Positions 59,140 through 60,027 of a stretch of DNA of 64,000 nucleotides are shown one piece after another; within the stretch, counting starts at the first letter, position 1; each line of letters begins with the position of its first letter. The notes beneath the pieces were generated by a model, which saw only the letters and a list, made by a program, of their open reading frames with translations, was not told the DNA's origin and searched no databases. The translations under genes and the position numbers were made by a program. This DNA is from Anaerolineaceae bacterium (lineage in GTDB: Bacteria > Chloroflexota > Anaerolineae > Anaerolineales > Anaerolineaceae): the NCBI GenBank assembly GCA_002702705.1, contig PABH01000007.1:1-64000 (forward strand), given 5' to 3'.

Positions 59140-59252
59140 TAGAAGATCCTCTTTAATTTTCTTCGGAAAAATAGCAAATGATGATCAATTTTACCTTTAT
59201 TTAAACCAGGATTAGGATAAAATAAAAAGTATAACTTTATAAAGGAGACAAA

Positions 59253-59990
59253 ATGGCCTTAAAAATTGGAGATCAAGTACCAGATTTTTTATTACCAGCC
59301 ACCGAGAATCGGTTTATCCAATTAAAGGATTATCGCGGAAAAAATATTGTACTTGCTTTTTTTCCCATGGCATGGACACCGATATGAACGAATCAAATCC
59401 CTTCTTACGAGGCGCAAGCCGCAAAGTTTGAGGGATTAAATACCCAGGTTCTGGGTATCAGCGTGGATCATGTACCATGTTTACAAGCCTGGCAAGAGAG
59501 TCTAGGCGGGATTACCTACCCATTATGTAGTGATTTTTGGCCACATGGTGCCGTGGCTGAAAAATTTGGTGTTTTTCGTGAAGATGGAACTTCGGAGCGA
59601 GCTTTATTTATCGTTGATGAAGAAGGCATAATTCAATATATTGATATTCATGATATTGATGATCAACCGGATAATGAAATTTTATTTGATGAGTTAAAAA
59701 AGTTGCGACCGGATTTAGCCGAAAAATTACCAGAACCAGGAGAAATGCCTCAAGGTGATGTGATCATGTATTGTACACCATGGTGTACAGATTGCAAAAA
59801 AGCTCGACAGTGGCTTGACGACCATAATATTGACGTCGTAGAGATTAATGTTGAGGAATATCCCGAGGCAAAACAAAAGGTGCGAAATTATACGGGAGGG
59901 GATATCATCACCCCGACCTTTAATATCCGTGGTGAAATTGTCATTGATTATGATATTGCTGCCTTGGAAAAAATATTTCAGGTAAAATAA
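59253..59990 (+). CDS. Selenocysteine peroxiredoxin fused to glutaredoxin (in-frame TGA read as Sec)
   Basis: One continuous frame of 245 residues if the TGA at 59385-59387 is read through. Residues 1-160 are an AhpC/TSA-type peroxiredoxin (VPDFLLPATENR, YRGKNIVLAFFP, LGISVD, DFWPHGAVAEKFGVF). Codon 45, TGA, sits in AWTPI-X-TNQIPSYE, exactly where the peroxidatic Cys of TPxCT is found. Cys76 and Cys92 could resolve the selenenic acid. Residues ~167-245 form a glutaredoxin (Cys174, redox pair Cys178-Thr-Asp-Cys181, TPTF cis-Pro). The gene would reduce peroxides with electrons from glutathione through its own glutaredoxin arm. AAAGGAG lies six bases before the ATG. Full conservation beyond the TGA and a SECIS-like hairpin argue against a pseudogene. 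Selenocysteine machinery is not in the window. Confidence 0.85.
59396..59437 (+). promoter_or_regulatory. SECIS-like hairpin after the Sec codon
   Basis: The lower stem AATCCCTT (59396-59403) pairs with GAGGGATT (59430-59437). A middle CTT/AAG stem and an upper GGC/GCC stem close a GCAA loop at 59414-59417. The loop begins with G and lies about 26 bases past the TGA, within the range known for bacterial SECIS elements, which sit inside the coding region right after the UGA. Confidence 0.6.
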
Positions 59991-59991
59991 C

Positions 59992-60027
59992 AAAAAAATC
60001 CCGGTTCATACCCGGGATCTTTTTTTA
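59992..60027. terminator. Bidirectional terminator
   Basis: ATCCCGG (59998-60004) pairs with CCGGGAT (60012-60018) over a seven-base loop, with A7 before and T7 after. It ends the peroxiredoxin gene and the convergent SlyD-like gene. Confidence 0.88.

Follow-up and report, generated by a model that had tools for sequence, protein, structure and literature searches.

A gene carried by the window, a 64,000-nt stretch of DNA from an Anaerolineaceae bacterium, very probably encodes a selenoprotein in which selenocysteine (Sec) is read at codon 45 and an AhpE-like peroxiredoxin is followed on the same chain by a glutaredoxin (Grx) domain, the two being proposed to work as a relay. The frame opens at ATG 59253, contains a single in-frame TGA at 59385−59387 within the sequence AWTPI-U-TNQIPSYE, and ends at TAA 59988−59990 (Table 1). 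This agrees with the preliminary description, which had claimed one TGA interruption at the peroxidatic Cys position of a peroxiredoxin and a frame open for 200 codons beyond it into a glutaredoxin with a CTDC motif, numbered C178-T-D-C181 here. It had also predicted that ORF callers would give the truncated 3' part alone, and the plain ORF list indeed held only 59463−59990 in this frame (175 aa, GTG start). With it comes a selenoprotein architecture of two domains, cut short when ORFs are listed with the plain code. The long ORFs on either side (57601−59139 and 60029−60643) are both on the opposite strand and a terminator-like hairpin lies 3', so the gene seems to be a single-gene unit. A promoter scan found none directly 5' of it, with 6 sites in the region in total compared to 4.6 expected.

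Table 1. Features of the proposed selenoprotein gene and its immediate surroundings (window coordinates).
Feature	Position	Strand	Remarks
Ribosome-binding site AAGGAG	59242..59247	+	From sequence; shortly 5' of ATG 59253
Proposed Sec peroxiredoxin-glutaredoxin fusion gene	59253..59990	+	245 residues with TGA read as Sec
AhpC/TSA peroxiredoxin domain, residues 5−130	59265..59642	+	Pfam; closest to M. tuberculosis AhpE
TGA, codon 45, proposed selenocysteine, peroxidatic position	59385..59387	+	Aligns with AhpE Cys
SECIS-like stem-loop within coding sequence	59397..59436	+	Window copy: apical loop starts 26 nt after TGA
Glutaredoxin domain, residues 170−228	59760..59936	+	Pfam Glutaredoxin (PF00462)
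Cys174	59772..59774	+	Invariant in the 72 fused copies examined
Glutaredoxin CxxC active site, C178-T-D-C181	59784..59795	+	Both Cys in 62/62 Sec and 10/10 Cys fused copies
Intrinsic terminator-like hairpin and T run, 3' of the gene	59998..60026	+	Consensus match only

To place the gene among its relatives, genome sets of increasing breadth were searched. The family of the source bacterium, to which Anaerolinea thermolimosa also belongs, was represented by 147 genomes. Of these, 64 matched at E 1e-30, 53 with exactly one TGA and 11 without a stop; all 53 were fetched, and in each the TGA was the codon aligned with codon 45. At E 1e-50, 82 of 301 genomes drawn from the order matched (79 with one TGA, 2 without a stop and 1 partial match with TAA), as did 5 of 400 drawn from the phylum, of which four were two-domain and from the same order and the fifth was without the Grx part. 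Named genome contigs contributed 55 loci, including one from Ornatilinea apprima (L036); the named contig of Anaerolinea thermolimosa (L039) has the same gene as one of the family genomes (L122), and this match assigns the window to that family, Anaerolineaceae in the NCBI lineage. The genes of both named species are of the TGA form. Before counting, 8 duplicate loci and one that matches the Grx part only (L077) were dropped. The 110 distinct rows comprised 62 fused TGA copies, 10 fused Cys copies, 11 standalone TGA copies, 10 other Cys copies and 17 with Ser, and part of the standalone rows were distant peroxiredoxins only. A copy cut by a contig end (L150) and a distant relative (L151) were not counted as fused Cys copies. 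Alignment with Cys homologues, proposed earlier as a check, was thus available from 10 of the 72 distinct fused copies, the other 62 having TGA at codon 45. Chance or sequencing error as the source of the TGA was ruled out by its presence at the same codon in dozens of genomes, which also answers the earlier doubt about re-sequencing at 59385. Phage records gave 4 matches, the best at 38.5% over 51% of the query.

Both domains were recognized by Pfam in the one read-through frame, AhpC-TSA with 127.5 bits (cut-off 26) and Glutaredoxin (PF00462) with 51.9 bits (cut-off 22.9). In the peroxidase domain, P38, T42 and R116 (PxxxTxxC/U and Arg116) were present in all 72 fused copies. The same was true of D94, F95, P97 and H98 in the SDFWPHG motif, which was taken from the alignment and is common to the fusion protein and AhpE; W96 was replaced by Tyr in 5 copies and S93 by Ala in 1. 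C178, C181 and P221, corresponding to the CxxC and TP motifs of the glutaredoxin domain, were likewise found in 72/72. The best sequence match among solved structures was AhpE of M. tuberculosis (Rv2238c; E 8.6e-29, residues 3−149), the catalytic Cys of which aligns with Sec45, and seven AhpE sequences ranked first (103.9 to 100.7 bits) with the next at 82.2 bits. An AlphaFold2 model of the 245 residues, built as a monomer in which Cys stood for Sec, from an alignment of 44 sequences drawn only from the window and the named contigs, had a mean pLDDT of 96.2 and a pTM of 0.88. Foldseek placed AhpE entries of M. tuberculosis at ranks 1−9 for this model, and AhpE was also the top match by VIA-align (Z 26.6, rmsd 1.3 over 152 residues, 37% identity). 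This lead amounted to a tie, since Bcp4 of Sulfolobus and several 2-Cys peroxiredoxins followed at a distance of no more than about 1 Z unit. It is therefore the ranking by sequence, and not the fold by itself, that singles out AhpE. The glutaredoxin domain alone matched Spx and glutaredoxin/thioredoxin entries, weakly (best E 4e-7).

Hybrid peroxidases of the Haemophilus influenzae type also join a peroxiredoxin and a C-terminal glutaredoxin on one chain, and these are Prx5-class and Cys-based. The window domain scored higher with AhpC-TSA (127.5 bits) than with Redoxin (76.2 bits), which may set it apart from those hybrids. The glutaredoxin domain matched the YruB, Uxx-star and mycoredoxin (TIGR02200) families with 48.6, 40.7 and 32.4 bits, respectively, all below the curated cut-offs of 88.55, 66 and 89.5. 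Sec peroxiredoxins with TxxU have long been known (PMC1794560, PMC1088965). Among these, PrxU (NF040737) is described as an AhpC/TSA peroxiredoxin with Sec at TxxU (PMC13188914, PMC9312934), a likeness to the window protein; however, the latter reached only 66.7 bits with the PrxU model, against a cut-off of 270. The original assignment as a Sec AhpC/TSA peroxiredoxin joined to a glutaredoxin therefore stood for both domains and was refined in class, the peroxidase domain being AhpE-like by sequence rather than of the PrxU type.

M. tuberculosis AhpE is described as a one-Cys peroxiredoxin in which the glutaredoxin-like mycoredoxin-1 reduces the sulfenic acid, directly or via mycothiol (PMC4360819). 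There, a Cys-based enzyme and its reductant are two proteins, whereas the window protein is predicted to have Sec and carries the glutaredoxin on the same chain. The presence of these two kinds of domain on one chain suggests a relay from Sec45 to Cys178-Cys181, either intramolecular or between subunits, and the fusion supports the AhpE-glutaredoxin partnership described in actinobacteria. In the proposed cycle, selenocysteine would be inserted at UGA codon 45 by SelB and Sec-tRNA, with a hairpin in the next 50 nucleotides as the guide. The product would be a peroxiredoxin of the AhpE type that carries a dithiol glutaredoxin domain at its C-terminus. Sec45 would attack peroxide and become a selenenic acid, which the CxxC (Cys178, then Cys181) would reduce via a selenenylsulfide, formed either in one chain or between the two chains of a dimer. 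An NAD(P)H enzyme of the thioredoxin-reductase type would then reduce the resulting Grx disulfide.

A selenoprotein whose own glutaredoxin is not the reductant of Sec must also be considered: Cys76 or free thiols would resolve the selenenic acid and the Grx would serve other disulfides. Cys76 is present in 56/62 Sec and 8/10 Cys fused copies, and thioredoxin reductases of the source genome could reduce a Sec-Cys76 bond through thioredoxin. Yet the fusion persists in the 6 of 62 copies without Cys76, while Cys178 and Cys181 are present in 72/72. Furthermore, two standalone relatives from Bacilli have Ser at this position (SIPSHEAW), one of them with an adjacent grx-like gene, and resolution by Cys76 or free thiols was considered rather unlikely. 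An unfused arrangement was seen on a Bacillaceae contig, where a separate grx-like gene (3013−3255, below every model cut-off) precedes a Sec AhpE-like gene by about 100 nt.

Reduction of Sec45 by the fused Grx would still leave a need for electrons. The enzyme had at first been suggested to be self-contained and fast; it may be fast, and its Grx still needs electrons from outside. Candidate sources in the source genome are a thioredoxin reductase (394.3 bits, cut-off 343.45) and an ORF of 397 residues (L153:1228-2421, contig C36) with an N-terminal Grx (WCSDC) and a thioredoxin-reductase-like part (327.4 bits, below the cut-off). The latter, a Grx-thioredoxin-reductase fusion, is a plausible electron donor of the fusion peroxidase, and Cp34/Cp9 of Clostridium pasteurianum is a precedent for a TrxR-Grx-Prx chain. 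For low-molecular-weight thiols, the model of the mycothiol enzyme MshA gave a strong match below its cut-off in the source genome (364.8 of 462.5) and that of bacillithiol BshC gave no match. A wider reading, in which these genes form a widespread and overlooked selenoenzyme family of AhpE fused to a mycoredoxin-like reductant, with Cys178 resolving Sec45 and the Grx-TrxR fusion feeding electrons from NAD(P)H, is put forward tentatively, at slightly less than even likelihood. If true, the fusion peroxidase and the Grx-TrxR fusion would make up a complete peroxide-reducing chain in two proteins. Cultured members of the order of the source bacterium are mostly anaerobes.

Selenocysteine machinery, the absence of which from the same genome had been named in advance as grounds for rejecting the Sec reading, was found complete in the source genome (5.9 Mb, 74 contigs, 96.8% complete). 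All four components exceeded their cut-offs: tRNA-Sec with 72.4 bits (cut-off 47), SelB with 377.2 (242.25), SelA with 536.6 (267.9) and SelD with 361.8 (125). ARAGORN independently found a Sec tRNA with anticodon TCA. In a control of 14 genomes, the cut-offs were passed in 5 for tRNA-Sec, 2 for SelB, 1 for SelA and 2 for SelD, the tRNA-Sec control being the least sharp. The SelD gene itself carries an in-frame TGA (SCAG-TGA-ASK). Two further TGA-bearing genes were observed in this genome. One, at L019:1318-2025 on the − strand of contig C51, is a TGA-interrupted PrxU gene (393.4 bits with NF040737, cut-off 270; 236 residues, without a Grx domain). The other, at about 1492−1962 of L018 (contig C38), is Prx-like with the motif U-P-Y-C, and its best model was SelL-related at 72.1 of 120, below the cut-off. 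Together, the TGA-interrupted SelD, PrxU and U-P-Y-C genes support the use of Sec in the source genome.

A bSECIS search of 59385−59440 had been proposed as a check, and a SECIS-like, covarying hairpin was present there at 59397−59436. The 66 bases from the TGA on could be aligned without gaps across the 62 TGA copies, and in all 62 the minimum-energy fold was one hairpin with its loop 22−29 nt behind the TGA. As protein conservation could mimic structure, a synonymous-codon shuffle was used as the null, in which codons were exchanged between sequences only inside the same column and amino acid. The mean folding energy of the TGA copies was −18.4 kcal/mol compared to −13.4 (sd 0.31) in the shuffles, none of 200 being as low, and for the 10 Cys copies −6.6 compared to −5.5 kcal/mol (2/200 as low). 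Paired cells numbered 686 in the TGA copies against 635 (sd 5.4) in the shuffles (0/200), and 74 against 72.8 in the Cys copies (70/200). The median hairpin energy was −18.6 kcal/mol for TGA and −5.1 for Cys copies (Mann-Whitney p 8e-6, a nominal value given the relatedness of the sequences).

Covariation was examined with a reference structure of 13 pairs, RNAalifold having returned an empty structure on the 62-row alignment. The reference was taken from folds of individual sequences before its pairs were counted on that 62-row alignment, so the covariation test leans towards that structure; the shuffle energies do not depend on it, leaving the synonymous-codon null without that lean, and a further control is provided by the Cys copies. 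The covariation score was 0.244 compared to 0.144 in shuffles (0/500) and at most 0.088 when the structure was slid. Standard pairs filled 85.1% of pair cells (78.1 in shuffles, 0/500), and 62 pair cells were changed on both sides (23.6 in shuffles, 0/500). Two weaker measures were pairs changed on both sides (7 compared to 4.6, 9/500) and further pair types (21 compared to 17.9, 10/500). A slide of −1 beat the unslid structure on these 2 of the 5 measures (8 pairs and 24 types compared to 7 and 21) and was far behind on the other three. Columns 18 and 47 form one of the compensated pairs, U-A in the window copy and G-C in 37/62.

The minimum-energy fold contained five or more of the 13 reference pairs in 55/62 TGA copies but only 1/10 Cys copies; 7/62 TGA copies had fewer than 5, and nine Cys copies shared none. 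The remaining Cys copy, a fused gene with TGC at codon 45 (L029:2678-3418), kept the hairpin with 13 of 13 pairs at −19.2 kcal/mol and may represent a recent Sec-to-Cys change; it was kept in all counts, and its contig has a coverage of 6. The hairpin of the window itself was moderately unusual (z −2.29, 4/200 shuffles as good) and had 8 of the 13 pairs. By the bSECIS rule, a G is expected among the first two loop bases, and this was seen in only 39/62 of the minimum-energy hairpins of TGA copies. The hairpin behind the TGA is stronger than synonymous recoding explains, and is lost or weak in nine of the ten Cys copies.

SelB (E 1e-60) was found in 48/53 genomes with a TGA copy compared to 4/11 with a non-TGA copy (Fisher p 3e-4), the 11 including those of the truncated L150 and the distant L151. 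Of the five TGA genomes in which SelB was not found, all were drafts of 61−90% completeness. Within a single genus (g40), SelB was present in 8/8 genomes with a TGA copy and in 0/7 without TGA (p 1.6e-4); one further genome of this genus (G128) had SelB and no match to the fusion gene and was placed in neither count. Both p values are nominal, the species being related. The genus can serve as a natural experiment on the reason for using selenium: the same enzyme occurs with Sec where SelB is present (8/8) and without TGA where SelB was not found (7/7). Three fused Cys copies were found in genomes that retain SelB and, therefore, Sec is not indispensable. An IQ-TREE tree was calculated from 85 of the 110 distinct rows, leaving out L078-L083, L150, L151 and the 17 Ser-bearing rows, and was rooted at the midpoint for drawing only. 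The Cys label required 5 changes, at least 4 of them forced by well-supported branches. Cys copies nested within the Sec group fit with repeated loss of Sec.

These data also bear on whether the TGA is a true stop, leaving either a pseudogene or two products, a peptide of 44 residues and a glutaredoxin protein with a start of its own. The plain code does yield only the 175-aa GTG ORF. Against this, in 62 distinct fused copies a single TGA falls on this same codon and the frame is unbroken before and after it, the source genome has a complete Sec set, and both selection on the hairpin and co-occurrence with SelB were observed, making a true stop very improbable. Reading of the TGA as another residue, such as Trp by suppression or by a genome-wide code change, would account for the open frame and nothing further, and can practically be discounted given that all 10 fused relatives without TGA have Cys there, that codon 45 aligns with the catalytic Cys of AhpE and that a tRNA-Sec with anticodon TCA is present.

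With the TGA read as Sec, the protein was compared to published selenoproteins. In the rows shown of two reviews of prokaryotic selenoproteins, PMC13188914 (2026) and PMC9312934 (2022), Prx, Prx-like and Grx selenoproteins are listed and no Prx-Grx fusion was among them; the 2026 review includes several fusion selenoproteins. The term AhpE is absent from the main texts of both, as are Chloroflexota from that of PMC13188914 and Chloroflexi from that of PMC9312934. A search of titles and abstract starts, with preprints and most subscription journals outside its scope, gave no Sec AhpE or Sec Prx-Grx fusion among the matches listed. No earlier report of an AhpE-Grx selenoprotein was therefore found in the literature searched, which is not proof of absence.

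Standalone TGA-bearing AhpE-like peroxiredoxins were observed in other Chloroflexota metagenome assemblies (n=9; L049-L051, L053-L056, L061, L065), with the TGA behind F(T/S)xT and without a Grx domain. A further group of 17 relatives was from Acidobacteria (L057-L060, L062-L064, L066-L070, L072-L076). These kept the SDFWPHG motif, had Ser at the peroxidatic position in 17/17 and Thr at position 42 in 0/17, and are therefore probably not ordinary peroxidases.
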